Source: Citrus sinensis
Taxonomy: Eukaryota; Streptophyta; Magnoliopsida; Sapindales; Rutaceae
Length of the DNA: 64,000 bases
Assembly (NCBI RefSeq): GCF_022201045.2
Contig: NC_068557.1
Span: forward strand, 7,068,001 to 7,132,000
Reading direction: 5' to 3'
Both the position numbers and the translations under genes were made by a program. This document shows positions 27,484-57,330 of this stretch, one piece after another (the first letter of the stretch is position 1; each line of letters starts with the position of its first letter). Under the pieces are notes generated by a model. That model was not told the origin of the DNA. It saw only the letters and a program-made list of their open reading frames with translations, and did not search any database.

Positions 27484-28340
27484 ATGATGCAAAGGAATAA
27501 CAATAACTCGTCAACAACATCAAGCGTGCAATCAGCATGTGCTGCATGCAAGCACCAAAGGAAAAAATGCAGTGAGGATTGCAAATTGGCACGCTATTTT
27601 CCTGCTAACAGGAGCAAAGAATTTCAAGCTGTGCATAAAGTTTTTGGCGTCAGTAACGTCACAAAGATAGTCCAAAACGCCAATGACGAAGAAAGTAGAC
27701 AAAAAGTCGTTGATTCGTTGATTTGGGAAGCTTTTTGGAGACAGAAGGATCCGGTTTCAGGACCCTACGGCGAGTATCAGAGGATTTGCGAGGAACTTAA
27801 GTTGTATAGAAGTCAAACCCTAATGCAAAACCACAACCACCGGAATCAGAATCATCAATTGGTGCAGTTACCAGGACAAGGGGGGATGATTTACAGGTCT
27901 TCTTCGCAGCCACTAATGGGATGGAATAATGGGATGAATACTAACAATGGCATTAGTGTCAGTGGTAACGAGCAGTTGAATTATAATAATCATGATAATG
28001 GGAATAATTCGATCGTTGATTTGGATACTTATAGTTTTGCTTCACATTTTGTGCAAAGTCCAAAGAATTTGAAGCAAGAAAGAGAGGTTGGTACCGTTGT
28101 TATTCCACTGCAGCAGCAGCAGCAGCAACGGCAACAACCCTCCATCAATAGTGGGTTTAGCCAGCAGTACTACATTCCAGGTAAATTTTAATAACCCATT
28201 AACATAAAGCACATTACATGAATCAATTACCAAGCAAAGAGAAAAAAAAAGGTCAATAAAAATTGTAATTGATTTATCAACCACAAAGTAATTAAATGTC
28301 TTGTGTTTAATTGGTTTATTGTTTAGGTCAATTTAGTTGA
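27484..28340 (+). CDS. LOB-domain (LBD/AS2-like) transcription factor, class I
   Basis: Plant-specific nuclear transcription factor family controlling organ boundaries and lateral organ or pollen development. The LOB domain spans about residues 17-115: Cys block C-x2-C-x6-C-x3-C (CAACKHQRKKCSEDC), a GAS-like region with FGVSNVTKIV, and the DPVSGPYGEY segment followed by a short leucine/basic stretch. The C-terminus is Asn/Gln-rich with a poly-Gln run. Start: ATG at 27484, since the frame upstream has only a GTG and a probable 5' UTR splice acceptor ends at 27483. Exon 1 is 27484-28180. A GT at 28181 and 'tttag' at 28326 give a second exon 28327-28340 ending GQFS, 236 aa; without splicing the frame ends GKF. 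It looks closest to the LBD22-like branch, but I do not assign a member. Confidence 0.88.
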
Positions 28341-29638: not shown

Positions 29639-31560
29639 GTTAGCACAAAACGAACTATAAAATAATTTATTGTGGCGCACAACACACACACACACACCTC
29701 ACTATCTCTCACGCAAACTCACATTACGCTCATTGTTGAGTGTTAGAAAATGCATATTTATAAAGGAGAAAATCGTCATTTTACATTTCAAACCTTACTA
29801 ACAACCCTTACTTTTATATATTTAAGCTTTTTGTAATTTAATTATGTGTGTTTTATTTTAATTAAGTATTTTATGTATTTTAGGGGCATTATAGTCATTT
29901 CACAATGAACGAGAGATCAGATGGCAAAACAAACATCACTTTTGAACTCAAGACAGTCGATAACGTTAGAAGGAGCATCAAAGGAAAAATGGCATTGTTC
30001 ACATGTACGGTACTATTCACATGTACGGTACTGTCTACGTTACTGTTCACATAGACGGATCGATGACGTGGCATTGACCGATGATGTGGCATTGACTGAT
30101 GAGGTGTCACGATCATGTTGGACTAAAATTCTTATGCACTGTTGATCGATGACGTGGCAGCATATCAGTGGACCAAAAATCTCGCGTACGGTACATGCAT
30201 TACACATGATTATTTTCAACCAAACCGCGTCACTGTTCAACCCGGGTCAAACCGTGTTACTGTTCACCCACGTGGTCAAACTGCGTACTGTTGACTGATG
30301 ACGTGGCGCAATCCTGAGCGTCCAAACTGTTTTTAATCTGATGGCCACGATTTACTCAATGTATCTATAAAAAGGGGGCCTCTCCCCCTAATTTGATATC
30401 TTTGAATCCATTTTTGAACTCCATTTTCGGCAATTCCTTCTCCATCTTATATTTTCTATGTATTTTAATAAATTCTCATTTTGCCCCTAGTTCAATAATG
30501 AGTAGCTAATTTTCTTTCAAGCTTAGGTTGAAGGTGAAGTCTCAACATGTGTCATGGGCTTTATTTGGTAAATTTATTTTCTTTTCCCCTCTAATTTTTG
30601 TGGATGATTTGACTTTTCGTCGATAAATAATAATAATCTTGTTTAGATATCGCCTTGGTTACATCGGCTCCTTAGTACAAGGTTATTATTATTTGGCACG
30701 ATAAGGCCTTAGCACCATATTGATTAGAGTGTGGTTCATGAGGTGTGGATTCTCCCCTCATGATTTAATTGACATTAATAAGGAAAATTTAGCCCATGGT
30801 GCATGTTGATACGGATCCAGATACCCAAGTACGTCATTTCAATAGAATTCTCTTCAAATTATTCTCGTCATTTCAATTCTAATTTTAGGATAATCTAAAT
30901 CATTTTCACCACAAATCCAACCACCCATTTAGAAAATTAATTCTACACAATTAAAATCCACCCCCTCGTAGGATCGACACTCGTCACCATTGATCTATAC
31001 TACAATAGATTCGTGCACTTGCGAGTTCAATAAAATTTGCACAACACTCATGCCAAAATGCAGTGTTTCTCATGCATCTTATTGCTTTGTGCTCTGTCCG
31101 TCAGCGTTCTCTCTCTCTCTCGTTGTGGGTCTCTCCACATATGGCCTCTTATGCATCTCAGTACTCTCTCCTTCGGTTTTCTCTCTCTCTCTCTCATCTT
31201 GGGTCTCTCCAGATTTGATCGTTGGCTCTCTCTCTCTACCTCGTCGATAACTGCAACTTCACTCTCTTAGCTTTACTTGTTATCGGTTGTCGTAATTGAT
31301 TTGTGGAGGTAATTTGTTTCATTAATGTAAAATTTTGGTTGTGTTAATTACGAATATGTGAAGATTCAATTGCCATTTTGTTGCATTGTGTTGATAGTTT
31401 ATGTAAAAACTTGTTGTTGCAAATTACCTAAATGCTATTCTGTTGTGAGTTATTTGCTGTTAAAACTTGCTGCTAGAAATGTTAAATTATGTTGATATAT
31501 ATACTTTATGAGTTGCTGATGATTATACAAGAAAATATAAGTTGCAACAAGCGTATGAAT
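29639..31560 (+). repeat. Left terminal inverted repeat of the MULE (split by solo LTR)
   Basis: Arm of about 600 bp once the solo LTR 29734-31046 and its duplicated CTCAT are removed. It matches the reverse complement of 48233-48803, including the 'atacaagaaaatataagttgcaa' region near its inner end. CT-microsatellite tracts lie at 31110-31240. Confidence 0.75.
29734..31046 (+). mobile_element. Solo LTR of the same Athila-type family, TSD CTCAT
   Basis: A 1313-bp LTR from 'tgttgagtgttag' to 'aaatttgcacaaca', in the opposite orientation to the intact element and clearly diverged from its LTRs. CTCAT flanks both sides (29729-29733 and 31047-31051). It keeps a TATA-like 'ctataaaaaggggg' at about 30365-30378 and the TTGAC/GATGACGTGGC motif cluster near 30059-30110. 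No internal region remains, so it reflects LTR-LTR recombination. The other MULE arm preserves the empty site. Confidence 0.88.
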
Positions 31561-35726: not shown

Positions 35727-37113
35727 TGTTGTGCAAATTTTAATGTACTCGCAAGCGCACGAATCTATTGTAGTATAGACTAATGGTGACGAGTGTCGAT
35801 CCCACGAGGAGGTGGATTTTAATTATATATAGAATTAATTTTGTAAATGGGTAGTTGGATTTATGGGGGAAATGATTTGGAATAAGCTAATACTTAAATT
35901 AAAATGGCGAGAATAAATTCTAAAATTGGAATTGCAATGGAGAGAATAAATTGAAGAGAAAATCTATTAAATTGACGTACTTGGGTATCTGGATCCGTAT
36001 CAACATGCATCATGGGCTAAATAATCCGTATTAATGCCAATTAAATCATGAGGGGGGAATCCACACCTCATGAACCACGCTCTAATCAATATGGTGCTAA
36101 GGGCTTATCGTGCCAAATAATAATAACCTTATACTAGAGAGCCGGTGTAACCAAGGCGGTACTAGACAAGATTAGTATTATTTGTCGACGAGAAGTCAAA
36201 ACATCCACAAAAACTAGAGGGGAAGAGAAAGTAAATTTATCAAATTAAGCCCATGACACATGTTGAGACTTCACCTTCAACCCAAGCTTGAAAGAAAATT
36301 AGCCACTCATAATTGAACTAGGGGCAAAATGGGAATTTATTAAAATACATAGAAAATACAAGATGGAGAGAGAATTACAGAAAATGGATCCCAAAAATGG
36401 ATTCAGAGATATCAAATTAGGGGGGGGGATGCCCCCTTTTTATAGATACATGGAGTAAATCATGGCCATCGGATTAAAAACAGTTTGGACGCTCAGGATT
36501 GCGCCACGTCATCAGTCAACAGTCCACGGTTTGACCACGCGGATGAACAGTAACACGGTTTGACCCGACTTTGAACAGTAACGCGGTTTGACCCGGATGA
36601 ACAGTAACGCGGTTTGGTTGAAAATAATCCTGTGTGATGCATGCACCGTACGCGAGATTTTTCGTCCACTGATATGCTGCCACGTCACCATCAACAGTAC
36701 ATAAGAATTTTAGTCCAACAGGATCGTGACACCTCATCAGTCAATGCCACATCATCGGTCAATGCCACGTCATCATCCGTCTGTGTGAACAGTGTCGTGA
36801 ACAGTAACGTATACAGTACCGTACACGTGAATAGTACCGTACATGTGAATAGTGCCATTTTTCCTTTTATGCTCCTCCTAAGGTTTTCGACCATCCTGAG
36901 TTCAAAAGTGATGTCCGTTTTGCCGTCTGATCTCTCCTTTATTGTGAAATGACTATAATGCCCCTAAAATACATAAAATACTTAATTAAAATAAAACACA
37001 TGTAATTAAATCACAAGAAGGTTAAATATATAAAAGTAAGGGTTGTTAGTAAGACTTAAAATGTAAAATGACGGTTTTCTCCTTTATAAATATGCATTTT
37101 CTAACACTCAACA
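35727..37113 (-). repeat. 3' LTR of the Athila-type element (1387 bp)
   Basis: Bounded by TG...CA in the element sense ('tgttgagtgttag' to 'tttgcacaaca'). It carries a TATA-like box at 36437-36445 and the same motif clusters as the 5' LTR. Differences from the other LTR include 'aaataatccg' versus 'taataatctg', 'tttatcaaa' versus 'tttaccaaa', and 'aatcctgtgtgatg' versus 'aatccagtgatg'. Confidence 0.95.
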
Positions 37114-37125
37114 CACCCCCCAACC
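37114..37125 (-). other. Polypurine tract of the retrotransposon
   Basis: On the element strand 'ggttggggggtg' directly abuts the 3' LTR start 'tgttgag', the expected position for the plus-strand primer. Confidence 0.85.
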
Positions 37126-39004
37126 AGCTTATTGCTAGTCCCTAGCAAATAAAGCGAAAATAAAATTCAAATTCAAAATATTTTTTTTTTAATAGAAACA
37201 CTCGTATTTATTCCATCAGATTAATGATAGCAATCAAATAAAAGTATAAGCATTATCTCCAGTCTAAAGCAACATCACACCCACATCAACCATCCACATG
37301 AATTAGCCCAGTAGACTTGTTTTAGCTACTCTCAAGAATGACATGTCAAACCCCAAAATCTCACTGGAAGTAGTGACACTCTCACAAATAAATTAATCCC
37401 AATAAAAATAGTCACTCCAATGAATGGTAATTGAGAGAGAAAATAATAAAGAAGTGATATCACATGCTCTCACCAAGATGAAATAAATATGCCCTCAGCT
37501 TAGAAATAATACGATCTCAAGTCAAATAAAATGTTAGTCAACCCACTTTATTTATCTTTTTTTTTTTTTTTAATTATGCATCACTACATCTTTTTAGCCC
37601 ATATAACTAGCTTCTACTTCGGACTTAGGACGTAACGTAGGCTAGGGACATGGTTAACAAAGAAGGGAAATAAGGAAAACAAAGTGTATGTTTGAGAAAA
37701 ATGCAGAGAATTTTTTTTTTTTTTTTTTTGAAGTTGCAAGGTGGATTTCACCTATTTTTATTCTTTTGAAACAACAACTTTTGTTTTTGTTTTTGTTTTT
37801 GTTTTTTTTTTTTTGTTTTTTTTTTTTGGCATAACTTCACTGAACAACATAATTATTTACATTTTCTCAAACATAAATAGGTGATGGAACTTATAAGACA
37901 TCGGGTAATACTCCAAATCGGAGTGGGTCAAGATGATAAGTTGACAAAGAAAATGTTTTTTTTTTTTTTTAAAGGCTCAAAAGGGTTAACTATGGATATT
38001 TAATAAAAGGGATGGCTAGAAAGGCTCAAACGGATCAAAGATGGCCTTTCCATCGTCTTTTAGGGCTCTGAATAACCTTCCATATCTACTAGTTAGATGG
38101 GCCTCCAAATGTAGCAACACACTTTTTTTTTTTTTTATTAAGGGTTAACTCAAAAGAAATCTAGAGATCGTGTATACAATAATAAACTGTTAAGCTGTAT
38201 AAAGAATGGGCAAAAGGGTTACTCTCCAAGAAAAATGATAGGCTCAAAAACTCACTTGGTACTTATTATGACATGTTCATTCCTTCAAGCAACTCATATA
38301 TGTCTCCAACATCAACATGTAGAGTAGCAAACATAATGTAACATCACTTAAGACCAAAGATAATACAAATACTAAAATTTAAATTAATCATGTCACCCAA
38401 TGTTAAAACAAATCAAAATTTTTTTTTTTTTAAAAAAAAAAACATTCTACCCCCCAACCTATTCTAAACATAAAAAAAAAAAAAATATGCATGCAGAAAT
38501 GTGAAAATGATGTAGAAAAATTAATTTAGAAAAGTTACATTTAAAATGATAGAAAAGAAAATGATTTTTTTATTATTTTTTTTAAAGAAGATGCGTTTCT
38601 AGAGGAACTACACTCCATATTCAGCCATCTTCGACTCAAAAGTTGGAAAATGCATTTTTATAGAGGATAAATTAAAAAGAAGAAAAATAAACATAAACAC
38701 ATAATAAAGAAAAAAGAAAATGTCTTAATTAATTTTTTTTTAAGTTTTTTTTTTTAATTTTTTTTTTTAAACGATGAAGATGCGTTTCTAGAGTCACTAC
38801 ACTCCATATTCAGCCATCTTCAACACAAAAAGTTAGCAACAGTTAGTTTCTACAACAAAAAATTAGTAAAAACTTAACCAAAATTTCATAATTGTCGACT
38901 ATTCCCTCCCCCCAACCAGAACGAAACATTGTCCTCAATGTTTGAAATGAAAGAAGTAGAGTTTAGAAGACATCACCTGGGTGGTGCAACACAGAAGAAA
39001 ATAT
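37126..39004 (-). other. A-rich untranslated region of the retrotransposon with internal polypurine tracts
   Basis: No ORF of note. Many A-runs on the element strand (T-runs on plus). The word 'ccccccaacc' of the true polypurine tract recurs at 38450-38459 and 38908-38917. A direct repeat containing 'agatgcgtttctagag' and 'actacactccatattcagcc' lies at 38588-38633 and 38776-38823. Confidence 0.7.
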
Positions 39005-39673
39005 TTACAGGCAGAGAGTTAAATCTAATTTGTACTTCTTACTGCTGCTACTGTTACCATCATTATTTGGGCGCTCCAACACAAAGGTCCAGGGGTCTGG
39101 CTCCGGTTTATACGCTTGTAACAGATCAAGTAGCTCATTAGCAGTGTGAGCACAAATAAAGAGTTTTTTCACATTAGCGGGAATGAAATAGTTTTTTATT
39201 GCATGGTTAAGAAATGCGATAAAGCCATCATAAAAGTTATTGACATTTAACAAACCGATGGGTTTTTGGTGGATGTGCAGATGGGCCCAAGATGCTAGCG
39301 TGATAAGTGCCTCTAGTGTTGCAAGATCTCCTGGAAGGAAAATAAAAGCATCAGCATGATTAAGCATTTCAGTTATTCTTTCTTGCATACCTGAGACGAC
39401 TAACTCTTCTCCAGTTGATGAGTCAGACGAACTGCCCAATGGTTTTAAGACTCTTGGGATGATGCCTAACACTTGACTTCCTCTGATAAAAGCTGCTTCG
39501 GAGACCATTTTTGATAACCCTCGGTTACCTCCTCCATACACCAAATGTAAATTTCTCGCTGCTATGCTTCGACCAAGATCTATGGCTGCCTCAACGAACT
39601 CTTTATGTTTGCCATATGTAAATCCAGAAAGCACACAAATGTTCTTGAATTGTCTATTGGGAGTAGCTGACAT
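39005..39673 (-). CDS. Accessory ORF 3: LOG-like protein (cytokinin-activating enzyme family) with altered active-site motif
   Basis: 222 aa from ATG 39673 (MSATPNRQFKNICVLSGF), full length for LOG proteins, which release free-base cytokinin from its riboside monophosphate. The frame also runs 57 codons upstream (from 39844) but only the later ATG fits the family start. Rossmann-like features: LHLVYGGGNRGLSK, GSQVLGIIP, DAFIFLPGD, KPIGLLNVNNFYDG. The signature PGGxGTxxE is replaced by PGDLATLEA: the second Gly is Asp, the Gly of GT is Ala, and the final Glu is Ala. The nearby Arg of the MQERI segment is kept. The N-terminal CGSS is SGFTYG. Activity is therefore doubtful. It lies in sense within the retrotransposon and is uninterrupted, suggesting capture of a divergent host gene. 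Confidence 0.8.
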   Translation of the reverse strand: MSATPNRQFKNICVLSGFTYGKHKEFVEAAIDLGRSIAARNLHLVYGGGNRGLSKMVSEAAFIRGSQVLGIIPRVLKPLGSSSDSSTGEELVVSGMQERITEMLNHADAFIFLPGDLATLEALITLASWAHLHIHQKPIGLLNVNNFYDGFIAFLNHAIKNYFIPANVKKLFICAHTANELLDLLQAYKPEPDPWTFVLERPNNDGNSSSSKKYKLDLTLCL

Positions 39674-39993
39674 TGTGATACTTCTCAAAAACAATTTGTG
39701 AGTGCTTGACAAAAAAGAAATCACATTTAAGAGTCTTGGTGATAGTGGGTCATGGTTGTGTATGAGGTAATATGTCAGTGTCAAATAACGCGTAAAGCAC
39801 GTGGCTCGCAAGTCAAAAAGAAAACAGTAAAAAGGAAAAAGCAAACAGTAATAAAATTATTAAAGACAATAATGCAAACAATAAGACAATAGTGAAATAA
39901 AATAACAATAAAGTAAAAGGATATTTACAGGTAGTTGCGACTGTGGCTCACATCTTCCTCTGGTTTTACGTCCAGAAACGGCTTGAACGCCCT

Positions 39994-40551
39994 CTATGGG
40001 TCGAGGATAGGCTTCCTATCCAGTTTTCTTATAAACTGGCAAACAGGGTCGTTTATAGTCAGATTCCCGAGACTATATCGTGCATGCTCTTTCTGGAATA
40101 ATGGCCATAACTGGAGAATCGCTCCTTGCACATATCCACTGGGATGCGTTTCAAGAGACAAAATGATATCATCCAATGACTCCTTATTCAAGCCATCCCT
40201 AATGAATTGAATCTTATCTTCCCTGTTATCAGACACCATTCCTAAAGAACATGGGTTTTTATTGCAACTCATTCTGGCACACTTATGACAAGCAACAGAA
40301 ATTCTTCGAGCTCGTCGTTTTCTTGCATAATTTCCTTTACCACAACCAGGCATGTATGCAATAAATTTTGGAGGTAACTCACCTGCCGATCGTACTTTAG
40401 CCTCGATTAACCAACGGATGTCAGCAGGTATGTTATTCCTCATGAGTAATCGCATGCGTTCGGACCGAGCTTTATAGATCGTAAGGAGGGCATTCTGAGG
40501 AAGTGAAGGGAATCGCTTGTGAAGCTTCGCTAGAATCTCGTTTCTGTCCAT
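39994..40551 (-). CDS. Accessory ORF 2: basic Cys4 protein resembling carla-/mandarivirus nucleic-acid-binding proteins
   Basis: 185 aa, intact. A basic patch (KRRARR, residues 78-83) directly precedes C88-x2-C91-x4-C96-x4-C101 followed by a glycine, with a GKGNYAR lead-in. That order (Tyr-Ala-Arg, arginine cluster, CxxC, Cx4C, Gly) is the layout of the cysteine-rich nucleic-acid-binding proteins of carlaviruses and the citrus mandariviruses, though the spacing between the Cys pairs is shorter here. Those viral proteins bind nucleic acid and several act as RNA-silencing suppressors or induce host genes. The N-terminal ~70 and C-terminal ~80 residues (with FIRDG, then a hydrophobic QGAILQLWPLF) match nothing I recognise. 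It has no CCHC knuckle, so it is not a displaced gag. The homology is inferred from motif layout and is not proven. Confidence 0.5.
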   Translation of the reverse strand: MDRNEILAKLHKRFPSLPQNALLTIYKARSERMRLLMRNNIPADIRWLIEAKVRSAGELPPKFIAYMPGCGKGNYARKRRARRISVACHKCARMSCNKNPCSLGMVSDNREDKIQFIRDGLNKESLDDIILSLETHPSGYVQGAILQLWPLFQKEHARYSLGNLTINDPVCQFIRKLDRKPILDP

Positions 40552-40692
40552 ACCTTCGCCTCAGAATATCAGTTATTATGGGAAACTGAAGTAACCGACT
40601 TGATTGTCACGGAGTACCGTTATCCGCCACTTCACCGGGGTAACAAACTAAAGCACACAAATAGAAAAACAAATTAAAACACACAAAGAAAA

Positions 40693-40968
40693 TTAAAATC
40701 GTCCTCTTATTGAATTTACCTCAAGCTCCAACTGGATGTCGTAAACACTTCTCTCAATGTCACTGAGTTGGCGTTCTAAACCCTCAACATAGGCTACTAA
40801 CTCTGGTGGTTGTAGAGCCCAAATGCGTTGTGTTTTACAAAATTGAATCTGCCTTTTGAGATGAGTTTTGACACGTTGAAGTGGTTTAAGAATGCTCAGG
40901 AGGAACGGTCTAAGTATGAGACTCATGATTAAAAATGATAAGAGAAAACTTAATGGTAAAATAAACAC
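40693..40968 (-). CDS. Accessory ORF 1: small membrane/coiled-coil protein of the retrotransposon
   Basis: 91 aa, sense strand, first ORF after integrase (86-base gap). The N-terminus is strongly hydrophobic (residues 2-30, FILPLSFLLSFLIMSLILRP...), then a basic stretch (RVKTHLKRQ) and a C-terminal helix with coiled-coil character (VEGLERQLSDIERSVYDIQLELEV, about 61-85). A second Met at residue 15 could be the real start and would shorten the hydrophobic segment. Athila elements often carry an envelope-like membrane protein in this position, but this is far shorter, and I recognise no family. Confidence 0.5.
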   Translation of the reverse strand: MFILPLSFLLSFLIMSLILRPFLLSILKPLQRVKTHLKRQIQFCKTQRIWALQPPELVAYVEGLERQLSDIERSVYDIQLELEVNSIRGRF

Positions 40969-41053
40969 ACTTATGCAAAAACAATTTCAATTAGCAAAAG
41001 AATAATAATAAAAAGAAAGAAAGAAAAATCAAATCAACGAAAAGAAAAAAAAA

Positions 41054-42509
41054 TCAATTCAAATTTGGTGGGTCACTCAAATTTATTTCGGTGTCTTCTT
41101 CATGTGGTTGGTACTCTAGATATGGCTTTAATCTTTGACCATTAACTTTAAACGTGACACCATTCTTTGGGTCTTTAATTTCAATTGCCCCATGTGGAAA
41201 AACAGTATGAACAATAAAGGGACCAGACCAACGAGAGCGTAACTTACCTGGGAATAGGTGCAAGCGAGAATTGAATAAAAGCACTTTCTGACCTGGAGTG
41301 AACGATTTTCTCATAATTTGCTTATCATGGAAGACTTTCATTCGTTGCTTGTAAATCTTGGCATTTTCGTACGCGTCATTGCGAATTTCTTCAAGTTCTG
41401 CCAGCTGTAATCTTCTTTCTGAGCTGGCTTGCTGCATGTCAAAATTGAATTTCTTGATGGCCCAATATGCACGATGCTCGAGCTCCACAGGTAGGTGGCA
41501 AGCTTTTCCATACACTAGCCTGTAGGGTGACATCCCAATCGGGGTCTTGAAAGCCGTTCTATATGCCCATAATGCATCATCAAGTCTTAATGACCAATCT
41601 TTCCTGTCTGGCCTCACCGTCTTTTCTAATATGTGCTTTATTTCTCGATTGGAGATCTCAACTTGGCCACTGGTTTGCGGATGATACGGGGTCGCCACTT
41701 TGTGTGTGATTGAATACTTTGTCAAAAGTGCTTTGAATGCTTTGTTACAAAAGTGGGCACCACCATCACTGATTATTGCTCGAGGGAATCCAAAGCGTGA
41801 AACAATGTTGCTCTTCAAAAATGCTATCACCACCTTGTGATCATTGGTCCTACATGGAATTGCTTCTACCCATTTTGATACGTAGTCAACAGCAACCAAT
41901 ATGTATTGATGGCCAAAAGACGGGGGAAAGGGTCCCATGAAGTCGATACCCCATACATCAAAAATCTCAACCACTAAAATTGGATTTAGTGGCATCATGT
42001 TCCTTCGTGTAATGCTTCCCATTCGTTGACACCTATCACATGAAGAACAGAAAGTGTAAGCGTCTCGAAATATAGATGGCCAATAGAAACCACATTGTAA
42101 AACTTTAGTCGCTGTTTTCTTAGCACTGAAATGGCCTCCACAAGCTTGTTCATGGCAGAATGAAAGGATATTCTGAATTTCACTTTCTGGGACACATCGT
42201 CTAACAATTTGGTCTGCACAATACTTGAACAAATACGGGTCATCCCAAAAGAAATTTTTTATCTCTGCAAAGAATTTAGCCTTGTCTTGCTTGGTCCAAT
42301 GCTCTGGAAGTTTACCTGTAACAAGATAATTAACTATATCAGCATACCAAGGTAATACTTCCACATTCATTAATTGTTCATTTGGAAATGACTCATTCAA
42401 TGGTAATGATTCTGTAATTGTGTCAAAATGGAGACGAGAGAGGTGGTCCGCCACAACATTTTCTATCCCTTTTTTATCTTTGAATTCCAAGTCAAATTCC
42501 TGCAAAAGT
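41054..42509 (-). CDS. Retrotransposon integrase domain (separated by frameshift)
   Basis: About 483 codons without its own good ATG. It is the continuation of the pol frame after the one-base insertion at 42510-42512. Contents: tether region [11 protein letters not shown] and DHLSRL; H-H-C-C zinc finger ([11 protein letters not shown] ... [11 protein letters not shown], about 110-160); catalytic core with D ([13 protein letters not shown], about 190), D (ISDGGAHF, about 247) and E ([17 protein letters not shown], about 283); C-terminal GPY/F-type segment ([14 protein letters not shown], about 425). Catalytic residues are present, so the lesion is the frame break, not the enzyme. Confidence 0.92.
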
Positions 42510-45500
42510 AAACACCCAACGAATTAGTCTAGCTTTTGCATCTTTCTTTGTGAGAAGATATTTAAGAGCAGCATGATCTGTGAACACAATTATTTTACAA
42601 CCAATGAGATAAGATCGAAATTTTTCTAATGCAAACACTACTGCTAGCATTTCTTTTTCAGTAGTTGAATAGTTCAACTGTGCATCATTTAATGTCATAC
42701 TAGCATAGTAAATAACATGGGGAATTCGATCAACTCTTTGTCCTAATACTGCTCCTACTGCATAATCAGATGCATCACACATAAGCTCAAATGGTAAGTT
42801 CCAGTTTGGGGCCTGAATGATGGGTGATGATGTCAACAATTGCTTTAATTTTTCAAAAGCCATAAGACATGAATCATTAAAGATAAAAGGTACATCCTTA
42901 GCAAGTAAATTGCATAAGGGTCTAGAAACTTTGCTAAAATCTTTAATGAAACGTCTATAGAAACCAGCATGCCCAAGGAAAGATCTTACTTCTCTGACTG
43001 TTTTAGGTGGAGGAAGATTAGAAATGAGATCCACCTTGGCTTTGTCAACCTCAATACCTTTGCTCGAAATGATGTGACCGAGAACAATACCTTGTTTTAC
43101 CATAAAATGACATTTCTCCCAATTTAAGACCAAGTTCTTCTCGATACATCTCTGCAGAACTAGTGTTAGATGATGTAAACATTGATCAAACGAGTCACCA
43201 AAGACAGAAAAATCATCCATAAAGACTTCAAGGAATCGTTCCACCATATCAGAAAAAATGCTCAACATGCATCGTTGAAATGTAGCAGGTGCATTACATA
43301 ATCCAAATGGCATTCTCCTATATGCAAATGTGCCAAAAGGGCAAGTGAAAGTAGTTTTCTCTTGATCTTTTGGTGCTATGGGAATCTGATTATATCCTGA
43401 GTAACCATCTAGAAAGCAATAAAATTCATGGCCTGCTAATCTATCAAGCATTTGATCAATAAATGGTAAAGGAAAATGGTCTTTACGTGTGACAGAATTC
43501 AATTTTCTATAATCAATGCATACACGCCATCCTGTAGTTACTCTAGTGGGTATCAATTCATTATCTGCATTCGTAACTACTGTGACTCCTGACTTTTTGG
43601 GGACAACTTGTACAGGACTGACCCATGAACTATCAGAAATTGGGTAAATGATACCTGCGTCTAATAGCTTAAGGACTTCTGTTCTAACAACTTCTTTCAT
43701 ATTAGGATTTAACCGACGTTGCATTTCCCTAGTAGATTTAGCATTTTCATCAAGGTGAATGTAATGCATGCAGTCTACTGGGTTTATACCTTTGATGTCT
43801 GCTATGGTCCATCCTAATGCCCCTTTATGCTCTTTTAAAACATCCAACAACTTACCTTTTTGTTCGTCATTGAGGGATGATGAGATGATTACCGGCAGAG
43901 TGCTTTCTTCTCCCAAAAACGCATATTCCAAAGTGTTGGGCAATGGTTTGAGCTCGAGTTTCGGTGGTGATTCTGATGATGGAATGAGTTGCTTCTCTGA
44001 TGGTGCTAGTTGTTCAACTCTTGACTTCCATTTATTAGTGTCCATAGATGGTGCTGAGTCAAGCAGGGCGTTGACCTCATCAACCGATCTGTCAATATCA
44101 AAATCCAAACCAAAGTGAGTTAAGCATGTCTGTAAAGGATCATCACTAAGGTTTGAAAGAAAAGTATTATCAACTATTGTTTCTATTAAATCCACATCAA
44201 CAATTTCATCATCTGCACTGTGAGGTTGTTTGGCAATGTTGAAGATGTTCAGTTCCATAGTCATGTTGCCGAAGGACAACTGCATATTTCCAGTCCTGCA
44301 TTGAATGTGAGCATCCGCAGTTGCCAAGAAAGGTCGGCCTAGAATAATGGGGATGTGCTTCCTTGAATCCTGTATTGGTTGAGTGTCAATTACAATGAAA
44401 TCAACAGGAAAATAAAATTTGTCTACCTGGATAAGCACGTCCTCCACAATACCACGAGGTATTTTTGTGGACCGATCTGCAAGTTGTAACACCACTGGAG
44501 TTGGGTGTAATTCTCCCAGTCCAAGTTTCACAAACACTGAATAAGGTAACAGATTTACACTAGCTCCTAAATCCAACAAAGCATTCTCAATTGTGTGGTT
44601 CCCTATACTACATGAGATAGTGGGGGAGCCAGGGTCTTTGCATTTTAAAGGAATTTTATGTTGGAGTATAGAACTAACGTTTTCTGTTAAAAATGCCTTC
44701 TTTTGAACATGCATGTTTCTCTTTTTAGTACAAAGGTCTTTAAGAAACTTGGCATAAGATGGAACTTGTTTAATAGCATCAAGTAAAGGGATGTTAACAC
44801 TTACCTGTTTGAAGATTTCAAGAATCTCACCTGTGGATTTTCCCTTCTTTCCTTTAGCTAACCTTTGAGGAAATGGAGCTTTGGGAACGTATTCTCGTGG
44901 GTTAGTTTCTTCTTTCTCCTCCGGTGATGAGTCCTCAACATTCACAGGTACAATTTGATTTTCTTTTGTCACCGGCATCTCCACTTTGTTGTCGACTTCC
45001 TTTCCTTTTCGCAAGGTCATTACTGCTTTGATCTCTCCATGCTGCTGTGGTGAACTGGTACTTGCTTCATGCACTCCTTTAGGGTTAGGCACTGGTTGAC
45101 TTGGAAATTTTCCTTTCTCAACAGTCATTGCCAAGGTCTGAACTGAAGAAGCAAGTTGTCCCACCATCTTCTCGAGGCTTGAAACTGATTGGGCTTGTGA
45201 ATTGAAGCCTGCTCTCAACTCATTTCGTAGTCCATCAATGGTGCGGTTCTGTTGCTCAATCGTGGAGTGAGTAACATTCCTGAAATTCTGGAATGCATCC
45301 TCCCATGGTCTAGGTTGAGAGTGGTTCTGGTTCTGATTGTATGGTCTAAATGGTGGTTGAGAGGCTTGAGAAATTTGAGGAATTGGTTGCATTGGTGGAG
45401 CTGGAGCTGCTGGTCCATTCTGTTGGAGTCCTTGAGACCATGAAAAATTGGGGTGGTCTCTCCATCCAGGGTTATATGTGTTGGAGTATGGGTTGTAATT

Positions 45501-46445
45501 TGATGGCTTTCTCATTACACCTATGACATTGGCTTGATCTGAGTATGAGTCATGGTCATGTGGTTCTGTTGATTTAGCAGTCGATAACGATGCTATTTGT
45601 CGAGCAAGACCTTCAACCATCTCCTTGACTTCTTTGATTCCCGAAGTTGACTCGCCAATTTGAACCTCATTTACTCCTTTAATTCTTCTAGTATTCCTGA
45701 GTGATCGACTCCGTTGTTGGGAATTATCCGCTTGTCGCTGGAAGAATTCCCAAATTTCTGATGCACTTTTTGACATTAGCTCTCCTCCACTTGTTGCCAT
45801 TAGCCATTCTTGCACATTTGGTAGTAATCCCTCCAAAAAGTATTGACATTGGTGCCATTTTTCGTACCCATGATGTGGACACTTCAAGAGTAGCCCATTA
45901 AATCGCTCCCATGTTTCAAAAAATTGCTCGTCCTCTCTCTGGGTAAACTCCGAGATTTCCCTGCGAATAGCATTGGTTTTATGCACTGGAAAATATTTAT
46001 TTAAAAATTTTGTAACCATTTGTTCCCATGATGTAATGCTATTAGCAGGCAACGTATTTAACCATGAACGAGCTCTATCCTTTAAAGAAAATGGGAATAG
46101 TCTAAGTTTAACATCATCATCTGAAAAATTCTCATATTTGAATGTTTGACAAATGGCATGAAAATCATTCAAATGATTATATGGATCCTCATTTTCTAGG
46201 CCATAAAATGTAGGGAGACAATTTAACACACTAGGTTTTAATTCAAAACTCCTAGCAGCTACATTTGGGTATCTTATGCATGACGTGCTCAAATTAGCTA
46301 AGGGACTAAAATAGTCCTTAAATGGCCTCTCCTGTGGTGCTTGTAAATCCATTTTATTTTTAACGTGTTTGTGTGTGCGAAGTGTTTTTTCTAATTCAAG
46401 GTCTATAGGTTCAAGATTAGGTAATAATGACCTACGACCATGCAT
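42492..46445 (-). CDS. Retrotransposon gag-protease-RT-RNase H polyprotein (frameshifted end)
   Basis: Open frame of about 1300 codons. Start is uncertain: ATG 46445 ([10 protein letters not shown]) is more likely than an in-frame ATG at 46505 that would add 20 hydrophobic residues. Counted from 46505: gag with the retrotransposon-gag core ([17 protein letters not shown], about 155-260) and the Athila-type [13 protein letters not shown]; protease [14 protein letters not shown] (about 645); reverse transcriptase with [19 protein letters not shown] and catalytic FMDD (about 1095); RNase H with [14 protein letters not shown] (about 1240) and [11 protein letters not shown]. No CCHC zinc knuckle was seen. 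The frame ends at 42494-42492, where an extra base in the run at 42510-42512 shifts it away from integrase. Confidence 0.93.
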
Positions 46446-46823
46446 GCAAAATAAATAAAATAAAAATAAAGATGCAAACAAAATAAAAAATAAAGATGGG
46501 AACAAAACAAATAAAAATAAAGAAGAGGGAGAAATTACGATACTAACCTTATTGCGCTATTACAACCTTTTTATAAAAATACACAAAAATAAATACGTGA
46601 AAGAAATTAACTAAAAATTAAATTAATAAGAAAAATTACAAAGAAAAATAAATTAAAAATTAAATTACAGAATTTTAAAGAAGAGAAAAATAAAAGAAAT
46701 ACTAACCTTTAAATGTAGATTCACTCTTTTTTTTTCTTTTTTTTTAATAATAAAAAAAAATACAAGAAAATAAATAAAAAAATTATTCACAAAAATTAAT
46801 TCTATGAATTAAAATTACTTACC

Positions 46824-46841
46824 TCCCCGGCAACGGCGCCA
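46824..46841 (-). other. Primer-binding site, tRNA-Asp
   Basis: The plus strand reads 'tccccggcaacggcgcca', which is the 3' end of plant tRNA-Asp(GUC) including CCA. On the element strand it therefore pairs over 18 bases, starting six bases inside the LTR edge. This primer choice is usual in Athila elements. Confidence 0.9.
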
Positions 46842-47557
46842 AAAACTTGTTGTGCAAATTTTAATGTACTCGCAAGCGCACGAATCTATTGTAGTATAGA
46901 CTAATGGTGACGAGTGTCGATCCCACGAGGAGGTGGATTTTAATTATATATAGAATTAATTTTGTAAATGGGTAGTTGGATTTATGGGGGAAATGATTTG
47001 GAATAAGCTAATACTTAAATTAAAATGGCGAGAATAAATTCTAAAATTGGAATTGCAATGGAGAGAATAAATTGAAGAGAAAATCTATTAAATTGACGTA
47101 CTTGGGTATCTGGATCCGTATCAACATGCATCATGGGCTTAATAATCTGTATTAATGCCAATTAAATCATGAGGGGGGAATCCACACCTCATGAACCACG
47201 CTCTAATCAATATGGTGCTAAGGGCTTATCGTGCCAAATAATAATAACCTTATACTAGAGAGCCGGTGTAACCAAGGCGGTACTAGACAAGATTAGTATT
47301 ATTTGTCGACGAGAAGTCAAAACATCCACAAAAACTAGAGGGGAAGAGAAAGTAAATTTACCAAATTAAGCCCATGACACATGTTGAGACTTCACCTTCA
47401 ACCCAAGCTTGAAAGAAAATTAGCCACTCATAATTGAACTAGGGGCAAAATGGGAATTTATTAAAATACATAGAAAATACAAGATGGAGAGAGAATTACA
47501 GAAAATGGATCCCAAAAATGGATTCAGAGATATCAAATTAGGGGGGGGGATGCCCCC

Positions 47558-47566
47558 TTTTTATAG
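47558..47566 (-). promoter_or_regulatory. LTR TATA box
   Basis: On the minus strand the sequence is 'ctataaaaagggggc', a strong plant TATA context. It is conserved in the 3' LTR (36437-36445) and in the diverged solo LTR (about 30366-30374). Confidence 0.7.
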
Positions 47567-47619
47567 ATACATGGAGTAAATCATGGCCATCGGATTAAAA
47601 ACAGTTTGGACGCTCAGGA

Positions 47620-47900
47620 TTGCGCCACGTCATCAGTCAACAGTCCACGGTTTGACCACGCGGATGAACAGTAACACGGTTTGACCCGACTTTGAACAGT
47701 AACGCGGTTTGACCCGGATGAACAGTAACGCGGTTTGGTTGAAAATAATCCAGTGATGCATGCACCGTACGCGAGATTTTTCGTCCACTGATATGCTGCC
47801 ACGTCACCATCAACAGTACATAAGAATTTTAGTCCAACAGGATCGTGACACCTCATCAGTCAATGCCACATCATCGGTCAATGCCACGTCATCATCCGTC
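47620..47900 (-). promoter_or_regulatory. U3 cluster of W-box-like and bZIP-type motifs
   Basis: On the minus strand, TTGACyGATGAyGTGGCA-like units recur about three times at 47845-47900, and GTTGACTGATGACGTGGCGC lies near 47622-47641. Each joins a TTGAC core (WRKY target) to TGACG/ACGTGGC (TGA/ABRE-type bZIP target). Between 47644 and 47745, 'gaacagtaacgcggtttgacc'-type units repeat about four times. Motif identity is seen in the sequence; stress or hormone response is inferred from known binding sites. Confidence 0.5.
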
Positions 47901-48232
47901 TGTGTGAACAGTGTCGTGAACAGTAACGTATACAGTACCGTACACGTGAATAGTACCGTACATGTGAATAGTGCCATTTTTCCTTTTATGCTCCTCCTAA
48001 GGTTTTCGACCGTCCTGAGTTCAAAAGTGATGTCCGTTTTGCCGTCTGATCTCTCATTTATTGTGAAATGACTATAATGCCCCTAAAATACATAAAATAC
48101 TTAATTAAAATAAAACACATGTAATTAAATCACAAGAAGGTTAAATATATAAAAGTAAGGGTTGTTAGTAAGACTTAAAATGTAAAATGACGGTTTTCTC
48201 CTTTATAAATATGCATTTTCTAACACTCAACA

Positions 48233-48803
48233 ATCTCCAGTTATATGCTTATTGCAACTTATATTTTCTTGTATAATTATCCCAAAATCAGCAATTCACA
48301 AAGTGTATATATATAAAAGGTTAGCAAATATCAAACAACAAATTAACATTTTACAATTTGGTAATACAAGCCTTAACAGATACCGTCAACACAGATTAAT
48401 ACTGTCAACTGCAAGCTTCACAAATTTATAATAAGCATAACCAAGATTTGGCAATAATGAAGCAAATTACCTCCACAAATTGATTATGGCAACCAACGAC
48501 GAGTGAAGCCAAGAGAGTGAAGTTGCAACTGCAAGTCAAATTTCAGATGTGCCGTGAGAATGCAATCGACGGAGTGGAGAGAGAGAGAGAGCTGACAGCC
48601 AAATGTAGAGAGACCAACGACGAGAGAGAGAGAGAGAGAACACCGATGAACAAAGCACATAGCAGTCAAATGCGTGAGAAACGCGGCGTTTTGACATGAG
48701 TGTAGTGTGTGTTTGGGTGAGTGTTGTGTGAGGCGAGTGTGTGTGTTGTGCGCTACAGTGAGTTGTTTTATAATTAGCACAAAATGAACCGTTTTGTGCT
48801 AAC
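48233..48803 (-). repeat. Right terminal inverted repeat of the MULE
   Basis: Complementary to the left arm. It contains GA-microsatellite tracts (48577-48640) and 'cctccacaaattg'. It keeps a single ATGAG/CTCAT (48696-48700) where the left arm has the solo LTR. The outer end holds a small palindrome (ttagcacaaaatg...cgttttgtgctaa). Confidence 0.75.
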
Positions 48804-49014
48804 CATGGTCCTAAATGTTGTGAGAATATTGGTGTTGTCAAATGGTTGGTTCAATTGAGCTGAACAAGGCATATATATCAGTTGCCAACTTATTAAATTA
48901 ATCGTTTTGTGCTAATTGTGGTCCTAAATGTTGTGAGAATATCGGTGTTGTCAAATGGTTGGTTCAATTGCGTCGAACAAGGCATATATATCAGTTGCCA
49001 ACTTATTAGATTCA
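48790..49014 (+). repeat. 113-bp tandem duplication at the MULE right edge
   Basis: Two copies (48790-48902 and 48903-49014) both begin 'cgttttgtgctaa' and contain 'ggtcctaaatgttgtgag' and 'ggcatatatatcagttgcc', with only a few differences. Each copy starts with the MULE terminal motif. Confidence 0.85.
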
Positions 49015-52532: not shown

Positions 52533-53564
52533 ATGATGATCGGAGCAATAAAGAGTTGCAGATCTCTTGTTAATTTCCGTCCATGTCTACTCCAATTTTC
52601 TTCATTGCGTTCAATGTCTTCATTGAGAACACTTGAAGAAACTGTCAGGGCTGCAGTTGATGCCAAAGACTACCAACAAATTCCTGAGCTTCTAGGCTCT
52701 TTTGAAGAAGCTTGTCAGAACCCAAATCCCTTCTCATTCCTGTCCAACTTCCCTCAGAATCACAGAATAAAAGTCATTGATGAAATGTTGGATTCTTTTA
52801 TCCCTCTCAGACCCCGTTCTCGCCCCAAGATTGCCTATGATTACCTCCTATTGTACACCCTCCAAAGTCTGCATCCCCTCCCTCTTGCTCTTGCCATCCT
52901 CCAACGAACTCTTCGTTCTGGCTGTGTTCCGGTCCCTCAAATACGCCTCCTTCTCTCTTCTGCATGGCTAGAGCGAATGTGTCAATCTCAGTCCGTTGCT
53001 GATATTCTGTTGGAGATGAAGTCCATTGGGTATCATCCTGACTGTGGTACATGCAATTACCTTGTATCGTCTCTCTGTGCCATTGATCAGTTGGTGGAAG
53101 CAGCTAAAGTCTTGAAAGGCATGAGTAGTGCGGAATGTGTTCCTGATTTGGAGAGTTACAGGATTGTGATTGGTGCAATGAGCACAGCGAGGAAAACTAA
53201 TGATGCTGTAGAGATGATGAAGGAAATGGTGCTTAACATGGGATTGATGCCAAGGCAAGGAATGGTGATAAAAGTGGCAGCAGCATTGCGGGCAAACAGA
53301 GAGATGTGGAAAGCAGTTGAAATGATCGAGTTCCTGGAGAGGAAGGGTTGTCCTATTGGGTTTCAGGGCTATGAGGTTGTGGTTGAGGGTTGCTTGGAGT
53401 GCCGTGAATATATTTTGGCAGGAAAGACAGTAATGGGGATGACAGAGAGAGGTTTTATACCATATATTAAAGTCAGGCAAAAGGTGGTTGAGGGGCTGGC
53501 TGGTGTTGGTGAATGGAAGCTTGCTAGTGTTGTGAGGCAAAGATTCGCAGAACTGAAGTCTTAG
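52533..53564 (+). CDS. Pentatricopeptide repeat protein, At1g06270 type
   Basis: Single intact exon of 343 aa, the same length I recall for Arabidopsis At1g06270. PPR proteins bind organellar RNA. The N-terminus (MMIGAIKSCRSLVNFRPCLLQFSSLRSMSS) is Arg/Ser-rich without acidic residues, as in a mitochondrial presequence. Degenerate P-type repeats can be seen, for example from PDCGTCNYLVSSLCAIDQLVEAAKVLKGM and PDLESYRIVIGAMSTARKTNDAVEMMKEM, then RQGMVIKVAAALRANREMWKAVEMIEFL and FQGYEVVVEGCLECREYILAGKTVMGM. There is no E or DYW editing extension. The antisense ORF over it is a shadow. Confidence 0.9.
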   Translation: MMIGAIKSCRSLVNFRPCLLQFSSLRSMSSLRTLEETVRAAVDAKDYQQIPELLGSFEEACQNPNPFSFLSNFPQNHRIKVIDEMLDSFIPLRPRSRPKIAYDYLLLYTLQSLHPLPLALAILQRTLRSGCVPVPQIRLLLSSAWLERMCQSQSVADILLEMKSIGYHPDCGTCNYLVSSLCAIDQLVEAAKVLKGMSSAECVPDLESYRIVIGAMSTARKTNDAVEMMKEMVLNMGLMPRQGMVIKVAAALRANREMWKAVEMIEFLERKGCPIGFQGYEVVVEGCLECREYILAGKTVMGMTERGFIPYIKVRQKVVEGLAGVGEWKLASVVRQRFAELKS

Positions 53565-55030: not shown

Positions 55031-56537
55031 TCAACGCTTGACAGGATAACTGGCCTGCATGAGAATGCCACAAATACCTATGTTACTAGAAGGGCTATTA
55101 CGTGCCAACCTTATATAGCCAGCTTCACCCCAGCTAGTCCCCCATGAATTCTTCACAAGCCAGTACTTTTCACCATGATCTTCTCCATAGCCAACTACCG
55201 TGACACCATGGTTGAGCTGGTGTCCGCAATATTCATCAAAGACACCATGGGAATATAGTTGAAATGCATATCCTCCAGCATCAATTGCAACAGACACTGG
55301 TTGGAGTGAAACTTTAGCTTGTAGGTTGTTCTCACTGGCAGGTATTGCTTCATACCCAGTTATGGTCACTGCATGATGTTTAGTTTTATCTGTCTGACAG
55401 CGATCATTTTTGCCTCTGTAAGGATAATCATCCTCTGTGGTGACTCCACCAATCTTTGTGATGAATTCAAATGCTTTCTCCATGTATCCACCATTGCAGC
55501 CTTGGTTTTCGCTGTTAACATCACAGTCCACCAATTCCTGCTCTGACAGAGATACCAATTTTCCTGTTTTTAATTTGTTGATGCCTTCCACAGCTGCCAC
55601 TGCAGAGAACGCCCAACAACTTCCTGCATCAAAAGGTAAGATGTCATCTACTACTACCTTTGACATTTCTCTGTCACAGTTCAATTTCAAACAGAAAACA
55701 GTCTTCCCATATAACTGCTTTTATTTGATTTAGATAATATTGAATAACCTCTATTGAAATTGATATTCAGGCATTATGTTGGTCACAGAGGGTGTTTAAG
55801 GCATATTATTCATGGTAAAATAACTTCTATTGTTTTTAGAAACTCTGCCGGGTGACTAGATTTGGGCCCTTTTTTAAAAATGCCTTCTGTTTCTCCTTTT
55901 GGGAGTGTAATTTCAGTTCAAAGACTGGATCATCAAGAAGCAGGTGGTTGACAATGGAGGTTTGAATTTATTTGAATGAAATCGAATTGAAGAAATAATG
56001 AAATAGCCAGTCCTGTAATATAATACAAAAAATGAAGTCAGTGTTTATCCCTATCTTCTAACGTGCATTGAAAACATCCCAATTTCTTGTAAGTAAATAT
56101 TACATACCACATTGGCCTTGATCTTTGACTGGAGTTACAGCACCTTCCTTTCTCCAATCTACGCTAGCTGGCAAACCCAAATATTGTACGCTTGGCCAAC
56201 TTGGTTCGTTGTACGGTTTATTATATCCCAAGTAGGTAGAAATGAACTCTTCATTTGACAGGTCTGCAAATTTATTGTCTGTTAGCTTGAATGATAGGTT
56301 TTGAGAATTGATGTAGTCAATGTACTGAACATTGGACGAGTAGATTCCAAATCGCCGTTGCCATTCATCTTCACTCCCATACTCTCGGCTATATTGTTTT
56401 AGCCAGTTTTCGAACCTCTCCTCCATGGATTGTGGGTCGTACTTTTGTGGATAGCCCTCTGACCATGCCCCTGCAGGTATCCCGAGAACCCACAAAAGAA
56501 AAAGAGATAGCACAGCATTTCTCAACATCATGCGCAT
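55031..56537 (-). CDS. Papain-type (C1A) cysteine protease, SAG12/zingipain-like
   Basis: Secreted or vacuolar endopeptidase precursor, 340 aa. Exons 56108-56537 and 55031-55623, GT-AG intron of 484 bp splitting the Gly before the catalytic Cys. Start: ATG 56537 ([19 protein letters not shown]), a clear signal peptide; the frame extends 36 codons upstream without matching the family. Order: signal peptide 1-24, I29 inhibitor prodomain ([10 protein letters not shown]...[16 protein letters not shown], about 40-105), mature start near LPASVDWR, oxyanion Gln and catalytic Cys in QGQCGSCWAFS, GCNGGYM, catalytic His in [11 protein letters not shown], Asn in NSWGTSWG. Cysteines for disulphides are present. 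No C-terminal granulin domain or KDEL. The individual subfamily member is unresolved. Confidence 0.93.
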
Positions 56538-57330
56538 ATCTATTGCTATCTTGAGATGTAGATTAGTATAGATAGCAATGAAAAGCCTATGTTGCATTTT
56601 TTTATAAATTAAAGAAGCGGCATGCATGGTATGGTATGAGGTCATTGTTTGGATTGGTCATGCAATGTGGCTCATCAATAATGTTTGTTCATACTTTACA
56701 CAGGGTTTTTCGGTTGTGATTTCTCTAGTTTTCTTCACGTCATTTCGCATCTTTTTTTGCTGGAGTTTCACTACGGAAGCTCTCTTTTGTTTTGATTACT
56801 GCATTATGCCAACCAAAAGTTATGAAGTAACAGTTTGGTTGCATGTGGGTGTGGTAAGTGTAGACAGCTCATTGTGATTTCTGAAGCTTCAGCAGTGCAG
56901 CTACTGTACCTGGAGGCTGGAGCTTGCAAGGCAAAGGGTTCATTTAAAAATCCATGAAATTGGAAATCCCATTACGGAAATAGCAATATCTTGAAAAAAA
57001 ATTGGGTTATACTGGCCGTTATTAGTTTGTGATAATTTCGTTTTTTTAGTTCCTTTTGACATTGCGCAATTTATGAGGATTCCTTAATAGTTGCCGTAAC
57101 AATTTGTCGGCTGTATCAATAGTCTGTTAATTTAATTAATCATTTCAACTTTTAATAAATTAGTATAAAAGTTATCATTTTATTAAAAATTGAGCAGGAC
57201 ATGTTCTGCACGGCGGCAGGATTGTTTGATCTAAGAAGAATTGAATCGATTTATTTATGTAAACGCGTTAATACAGGTTTGTACTACACGGCATCGCTAA
57301 CGTACTTAAATATGAATCTATGTAAATAAA
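56538..57330. other. Protease upstream region and intergenic DNA
   Basis: The part next to 56538 would be the promoter/5' UTR of the minus-strand protease. No specific motif is claimed. Confidence 0.4.

Follow-up and report, generated by a model that had tools for sequence, protein, structure and literature searches.

Three conserved genes between integrase and the 3′ long terminal repeat form an accessory module in a Citrus sinensis Ty3/gypsy retrotransposon family

Introduction

Are genes that sit between the integrase and the 3′ long terminal repeat (LTR) of a plant retrotransposon kept because they are selected, or are they carried along passively? The question is raised by a 64,000-nucleotide stretch of Citrus sinensis DNA (NC_068557.1, positions 7,068,001 to 7,132,000; hereafter the window, to which all coordinates refer), which holds a whole LTR retrotransposon of the Ty3/gypsy order, 12.5 kb in length, at 35727..48232 on the minus strand. 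A first-pass annotation, made from the letters alone, had read three open reading frames (ORFs) behind its integrase as a membrane/coiled-coil protein, a viral-type Cys4 protein and a relative of the cytokinin-activating LOG enzymes, a combination for which it knew no described system. Extra ORFs of plant LTR retrotransposons are mostly without known domains (PMC9289625; articles are cited here by PMC number). Here we find all three genes in both of two subfamilies, inherited together and under purifying selection, and we are confident that what lies between pol and the 3′ LTR is a selected module of accessory genes.

Results and discussion

The module is a trait of the family

Three genes, which we call orfA (77 aa, 40693..40926), C4 (185 aa, 39994..40551) and LOG-like (222 aa, intronless, 39005..39673), follow each other in that order between the integrase and the 3′ LTR, all on the minus strand, in the sense of the element and open, as the first-pass annotation had described. 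The genome searched comprises 299.7 Mb in 11 contigs, and each ORF used as query returned at least 150 matches, nearly all of them open; the match lists hold the best 150 by similarity and thus tilt to young copies. Because choosing by cargo was to be avoided, copies were picked by integrase: a subset of 60 of the best 150 integrase matches, consisting of the first 40 rows and 20 hand-picked from the remaining rows with some preference for gag-pol frames that were short or broken, was fetched with its flanking DNA. All three ORFs were detected by blastn in 60/60 copies, with LOG represented by only 86 and 112 bases in two of them, and the frames were intact in 56 (orfA), 54 (C4) and 51 (LOG-like) copies, all three together in 46. 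The arrangement is thus not a one-off of the window copy. A second, sister subfamily (loci L017-L026) was met while seeking host LOG genes, and in the six sister loci that were read orfA, C4 and LOG stand in the same order, the C4 of L017 being 68% identical to that of the window. Loci L088-L091 are decayed members of the window element's own family.

Between the window and L017, dN/dS (Nei-Gojobori) amounts to 0.33 for orfA (dS 1.03), 0.24 for C4 (dS 0.94) and 0.21 for LOG (dS 0.75). Third codon positions vary most in all three ORFs, with differences at positions 1, 2 and 3 of 26, 16 and 35 (orfA), 42, 35 and 71 (C4), and 47, 24 and 72 (LOG). These ratios are well below 1, where decay with dN/dS near 1 had been named beforehand as the mark of passive hitch-hiking. 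Among the young copies, with same-length intact frames as the input (54, 53 and 50 of 60 for orfA, C4 and LOG), piN/piS was 0.23 (0.13-0.36) for LOG, 0.53 (0.35-0.83) for C4 and 0.58 (0.19-2.10) for orfA. Shared variants gave 0.21, 0.38 and 0.36 for LOG, C4 and orfA, respectively, and singletons 0.45, 0.59 and 0.89; the stronger constraint on shared variants points to selection in the replication cycles before insertion, followed by neutral decay. The integrase value, 0.03, is biased by the choice of copies and was left unused.

C4 resembles nucleic-acid-binding proteins of betaflexiviruses

A search of 5.8 billion proteins with C4 yielded 292 candidates, of which 260 are relatives at E<=1e-3 and the best 120 were examined. 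Named hosts among the matches listed are Citrus, Xanthoceras, Acer and Populus; Parasponia and Striga appear in a second search. Some of these sequences represent large clusters, with up to 566 members, and from the cluster sizes we infer that the relatives, too, probably reside in retrotransposons. A midpoint-rooted tree of 83 sequences groups the two Citrus subfamilies as sisters (0.94 local support) and places Acer/Xanthoceras and Populus separately. The proteins share four Cys residues, spaced CX2CX4CX3-4C (CX2CX4CX4C in the window copy), behind a conserved basic stretch, and a highly conserved C-terminal third; basic columns 77-80 together with C88, C91, C96 and C100 are conserved in at least 90% of 66 sequences.

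Two viral profiles recognize this family. At E<=0.1 in Pfam, Carla_C4 is matched by 61 of 66 diverse members (best 3.7e-8) and Viral_NABP by 60 (best 1.1e-8), the best Viral_NABP matches being colinear across about 85 residues. Of seven relatives scored against the curated cut-offs, all cleared at least one and four (P0017, P0018, P0054, P0347) cleared both, P0018 with 33.8 versus 23 and 28.5 versus 20.9 bits. A structure model of C4 (pLDDT 65.6) returned 12 weak fold matches, five of which are what we take to be betaflexivirus proteins, three carrying the label RNA silencing suppressor or nucleic-acid-binding. We consider it likely, with good confidence, that C4 shares ancestry with the Cys4 nucleic-acid-binding proteins (NABP/CRP) of betaflexiviruses. 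Like those of chrysanthemum virus B and sweet potato chlorotic fleck virus, it combines a basic stretch with a four-Cys cluster, and the Viral_NABP profile matches it over about 85 residues; unlike them, it is longer (about 182 aa), has an extra conserved C-terminal third and is resident in a retrotransposon. The viral NABP gene is a separate gene near the 3′ end, a placement resembling that of C4, and the Cys spacing of its product is probably wider. As for function, the sweet potato virus protein is a suppressor of silencing at both the local and the systemic level, and p12 of the chrysanthemum virus is a weak suppressor that is also a transcription factor causing hyperplasia (PMC12172455). 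By analogy C4 may act against silencing, for which we put the chances slightly below even.

Upstream of C4, a non-coding segment (40597-40656, minus strand) is 72-82% identical between the subfamilies in 40-column steps, and the spacer around it is poorly conserved; folding of this segment was no better than chance (z 0.61). A second block (39930..40060, minus strand) starts within the last part of C4, takes in the TAG stop and 22 codons that stay open behind it, and reaches a conserved GTAAAT. These approximately 130 bases are 88-95% identical to L017 in 40-column steps, despite a synonymous divergence of 0.94 in C4. Folded as 39925-40065, the block behaves slightly better than its shuffles (z -2.11), and Rfam assigned no family to 39930-40060 at gathering score. 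It is possible that the block serves as a splice donor, in readthrough or as an RNA element, and recombination between the subfamilies could also explain its conservation. A pattern search for copies in which splicing had fused the block's end with the start of LOG gave 0 matches, a null of the kind that weighs little.

The LOG-like protein has an altered active site and an EAR-type tail

By sequence the third protein belongs to the LOG family (PF03641, 9.1e-28; AtLOG3, 5.3e-46; TIGR00730 cut-off passed). Within NCBIfam the broad family cut-off was passed, and that of the cytokinin-enzyme equivalog NF058542, a model built for prokaryote annotation, was missed with 91.8 versus 300 bits. The PGGxGTxxE motif with its catalytic Glu is replaced by PGDLAT(L/F)EA in both subfamilies. 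The window copy has PGDLATLEA, and the degenerate form is present in all 51 intact copies (PGDLATLEAL in 45, variants in 6); L017 reads PGDLATFEA, and the six sister loci carry PGDLAT(L/F)EA or close variants. PGGxGT occurs in 0/120 LOG homologs among the matches listed, and one host LOG gene, found by an exact motif pattern, has introns and keeps PGGYGTLEE. In CgLOG the residues Gly116, Ala117, Gly118, Thr119, Glu121 and Glu122, together with Arg99, bind AMP or catalyse, and Ala replacement of crucial residues nearly abolishes activity (PMC4979012). Mapped by motif order, the positions 116, 117, 118, 119, 121 and 122 correspond to Asp, Leu, Ala, Thr, Glu and Ala in the LOG-like protein, which keeps the catalytic Arg and has Ile for Lys100 and Thr for Glu125. 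Retained across copies and subfamilies, with PGGxGT missing from the homologs listed, the degenerate motif represents a conserved altered form rather than decay. In all likelihood the protein is catalytically dead.

The LOG-like protein ends in KKYKLDLTLRL, with Cys instead of Arg in the window copy (KKYKLDLTL(R/C)L, 39008..39040, minus strand). The LxLxLxL pattern is kept in all 58 family copies (of 60) with the LOG 3′ end in the fetched DNA and in 10/10 sister loci, hence in all 68 loci that retain the end, out of 70 inspected, and an LDL lies near the end of 105 of the 120 LOG homologs listed. Identity is 0.49 in the linker, 0.94 in LxLxLxL and 0.74 in the LOG body, values that derive from 91 of the 120 homologs picked for a tail-like end and so bias the tail upward. 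The tail is absent from the host LOG gene (n=1), as read from its last exon. LxLxL is the commonest EAR repressor motif, and 13 known EAR motifs have the form LxLxLxL, mostly at the C terminus (PMC9956375). A comparable protein is HaRxL21 of Hyaloperonospora arabidopsidis, likewise a parasite protein with a C-terminal EAR-type motif; HaRxL21 binds TOPLESS experimentally (PMC7446885), whereas for the LOG-like tail such binding is a prediction. It is conceivable that the tail acts as an EAR motif, though the balance tips somewhat to the other side. The description of the LOG-like protein as a captured plant LOG that has lost its catalytic site and bears an EAR-type LxLxLxL tail is well supported by these comparisons.

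orfA lacks a membrane segment

For orfA no Pfam family scored above cut-off in the 75 of 77 residues scanned. Its C-terminal half is coiled-coil-like, as labelled by eye. The best 19-residue Kyte-Doolittle mean is 1.03 in the window protein and 0.09 in the sister subfamily, maxima without a transmembrane segment. The membrane label of the first-pass annotation is not upheld by these values, and a membrane or envelope-like protein was rejected as a candidate.

A model for the module and its rivals

Taken as a whole, we read the element as belonging to an Athila-like family with a module directed at host silencing and host transcription, a reading that we regard as evenly balanced between right and wrong. 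C4 would bind RNA of the element or small RNAs and thereby weaken host RNA silencing, as its viral relatives do. The dead LOG would form a dimeric scaffold, given the LOG dimer fold, without making cytokinin, and its tail would engage TOPLESS-type corepressors and thereby change transcription or chromatin of the host. A role as a small coiled-coil partner is possible for orfA. The first-pass annotation had also proposed that such genes could help the element to escape silencing and favor its inheritance through dividing meristem cells.

Several observations weigh against this reading. The young-copy piN/piS of C4 and orfA is just moderately below 1, and the interval of orfA includes 1. The window C4 falls under both Pfam cut-offs (16.3 versus 20.9 and 14.5 versus 23 bits), so that the viral-type Cys4 protein of the first-pass annotation stands on the profiles of the relatives and not on the window copy itself. 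None of the C4 fold matches is significant (best E 1.2, none <=0.001), and the other 7 of the 12 are unnamed or unrelated. No virus is named among the best 120 of 557 proteins in the C4 profile search, which are taken up by plant-like copies, and a scan of viral_contigs for C4 relatives gave none; the viral link of C4 runs via profiles. On the LOG side, the structure model was unusable (pLDDT 39.3), and 15 of the 120 homologs listed have no LDL near the end, 12 of them ending elsewhere and 3 being near variants. A shuffled LOG-like protein holds LxLxLxL somewhere in 4% of cases, at the very end in merely 0.02%. Furthermore, ten oomycete effectors with LxLxL were tested and none bound TOPLESS, the motif alone being insufficient (PMC7446885).

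Among the alternatives, C4 could be a nucleocapsid substitute that condenses the genomic RNA for packaging, or an RNA chaperone in reverse transcription, leaving host silencing untouched. This is a serious rival, because the gag has Retrotrans_gag and the Pfam scan of the gag-pol frame found no zf-CCHC at E<=0.01; the basic stretch beside four conserved Cys and the spread of C4 relatives over six plant genera would suit it as well. We nevertheless judge it unlikely, as C4 is a separate 3′ gene outside gag, and the viral proteins related to it have accessory roles, in some cases that of a silencing suppressor (PMC12172455). For the LOG-like protein, a dominant-negative or nucleotide-sensing role has to be weighed, in which it lowers cytokinin activation by pairing with host LOG or by holding nucleotides, the tail being incidental. 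In LOG dimers the prenyl-binding site takes two residues from the neighbouring chain (PMC4979012), and in our own mapping the LOG-like protein aligns at two functional positions, the catalytic-pair Arg and the Trp that belongs to the partner-chain site. An incidental tail is at odds with its conservation next to a diverging linker (0.94 and 0.49, in a sample biased toward the tail), and we hold this role to be rather improbable.

Far less probable still is the active cytokinin-activating enzyme driving meristem division that the first-pass annotation had envisaged. The PF03641 and AtLOG3 scores would favor it, but the catalytic and phosphate-binding motif is lost in both subfamilies and absent from the 120 homologs listed, the altered residues lie within the site where Ala replacement nearly abolished CgLOG activity (PMC4979012), and the equivalog cut-off was missed; the active enzyme was thus rejected. 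Least of all do we credit passive hitch-hiking, i.e. that the genes were picked up by one copy or lineage and are decaying. Broken or cut LOG in 9, broken C4 in 6 and broken orfA in 4 of the 60 copies would agree with it, yet the between-subfamily dN/dS of 0.21-0.33 rules it out, a refutation that applies to LOG and C4, the order and the tail are the same in both subfamilies, and C4 relatives occur in six plant genera. Together with the presence of the genes in all 60 copies and the piN/piS values, this led us to reject it.

The element and its surroundings

The 5′ LTR (46848..48232) and the 3′ LTR (35727..37113), about 1.39 kb each and both on the minus strand, begin and end with TG...CA, and the element is flanked on both sides by the target duplication ATCTC. 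The alignment of the two LTRs has 6 mismatches in its 1387 columns, an identity of 99.42%, in line with the recent element of the first-pass annotation; with assumed rates for LTR dating of 1.3e-8 and 7e-9 substitutions per site and year, the insertion dates to 0.17-0.31 My ago. A frame of 1317 aa (42492..46445, minus strand; scanned with Pfam in two pieces) encodes gag, protease, reverse transcriptase (RT) and RNase H (Retrotrans_gag 5.4e-20, RVT_1 4.7e-31, RT_RNaseH 7.2e-35), and a second one of 438 aa (41054..42370, minus strand) the integrase (rve 2.2e-16, Integrase_H2C2 3.6e-13). Gag comes first, followed by a weak protease-like match (E 0.005) and then by RT, RNase H and integrase, the last three in the gypsy order RT-RNaseH-integrase. 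The frame break in pol noted earlier is real, with RT and integrase in separate frames in the window copy. Other copies are uninterrupted, since among the first 20 rows of the integrase genome search 14 show a single open gag-pol frame of 1817-1832 codons.

The label Athila-like is our assumption from features of the integrase and the primer site. The Athila primer binding site is tRNA-Asp-like, and the putative primer-site sequence of the element, TGGCGCCGTTGCCGGGGA, starts 6 bases past the 5′ LTR. The Athila ORF-1 domain PF03078 had no match among the element ORFs scanned with Pfam; it is present in only 16% of Athila elements and is not a required feature (PMC6317226). Like the window element, elements of the Athila/Bagy-2 type with an envelope-like third ORF have ORFs in sense orientation in the stretch from pol to the 3′ LTR (PMC7264820); the window element differs in having three small ORFs, an orfA without a membrane segment and no PF03078 match. 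No sense ORF longer than 30 aa is found in the approximately 1.9 kb behind the LOG-like ORF.

An older copy of the same LTR lies inverted at 29732-31046, about 4.7 kb away on the opposite strand, in stretches of 89-93% identity. A tandem pair of 113-base repeats (48782-49007) is located about 0.55 kb outside the 5′ LTR, and within gag Rfam reports snoR71 in antisense (45865-45968, plus strand; 43 bits versus a cut-off of 40). Host ORFs at 27484-28191 (plus), 52533-53564 (plus) and 55031-56645 (minus) are presumably pieces of LOB-domain, PPR-like and papain-type protease genes.

Relation to described elements

That Gypsy elements of Citrus sinensis and C. clementina can hold a LOG (YgdH) domain has already been published (PMC9289625, citing Steinbauerova 2011), and the YgdH/LOG Ty3/gypsy elements of Citrus (and Populus) in that article are probably of the same kind as the window's. 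Its main text ties the LOG domain to cytokinin and has 0 mentions of carlavirus, NABP, nucleic acid binding, EAR motif or TOPLESS. The same article describes a functional AlkB-type RNA demethylase in Phalaenopsis Gypsy elements, again a host-type enzyme family captured and kept, with the AlkB domain shared by RNA viruses; that enzyme is active in vitro, whereas the captured LOG of the window has lost its site (PMC9289625). Judged by titles and the opening lines of abstracts, none of the papers listed connects plant retrotransposons with Carla_C4/Viral_NABP or with an EAR motif; the Carla_C4/Viral_NABP names or accessions led, in the literature searched, to glyoxalase genes and a carlavirus and to no plant retrotransposon. 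The earlier statement that no such system is described consequently needs to be narrowed: it fails for the LOG domain of Citrus Gypsy elements, and it agrees with the literature searched for the viral-type C4 gene and the EAR-type tail. The EAR-type LOG tail and the C4 family across several plant genera are new relative to the first-pass annotation.

Conclusions

C4 bears on how plant LTR retrotransposons persist against RNA silencing, as a gene with a recognisable relative whose biology in plant viruses is known. Having such a relative, being under selection and occurring in several plant families, C4 makes the question directly testable by standard assays. With its lost active site and repressor-type tail, the LOG-like protein would represent a captured host enzyme turned regulator. 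There is also a consequence for annotation: a Citrus record under the name 'cytokinin riboside 5'-monophosphate phosphoribohydrolase' can be a retrotransposon gene that lacks the catalytic motif, and one listed Citrus cluster of that name comprises 705 member sequences.

More speculatively, and we consider this unlikely as it stands, a eudicot-wide retrotransposon lineage may long have carried a homolog of a viral silencing suppressor, joined within Citrus by a dead LOG whose tail binds TOPLESS, giving a two-armed control of the host. If true, one arm would act against small-RNA silencing and the other reprogram transcription through corepressor hijack; plant LTR retrotransposons would bear effector genes of the virus and pathogen type, and a gene would have been exchanged between retroelements and betaflexiviruses. 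The element family, a common and recently active plant retrotransposon, carries three extra genes under selection, which suggests that it manages its host with tools taken over from viruses and plants.

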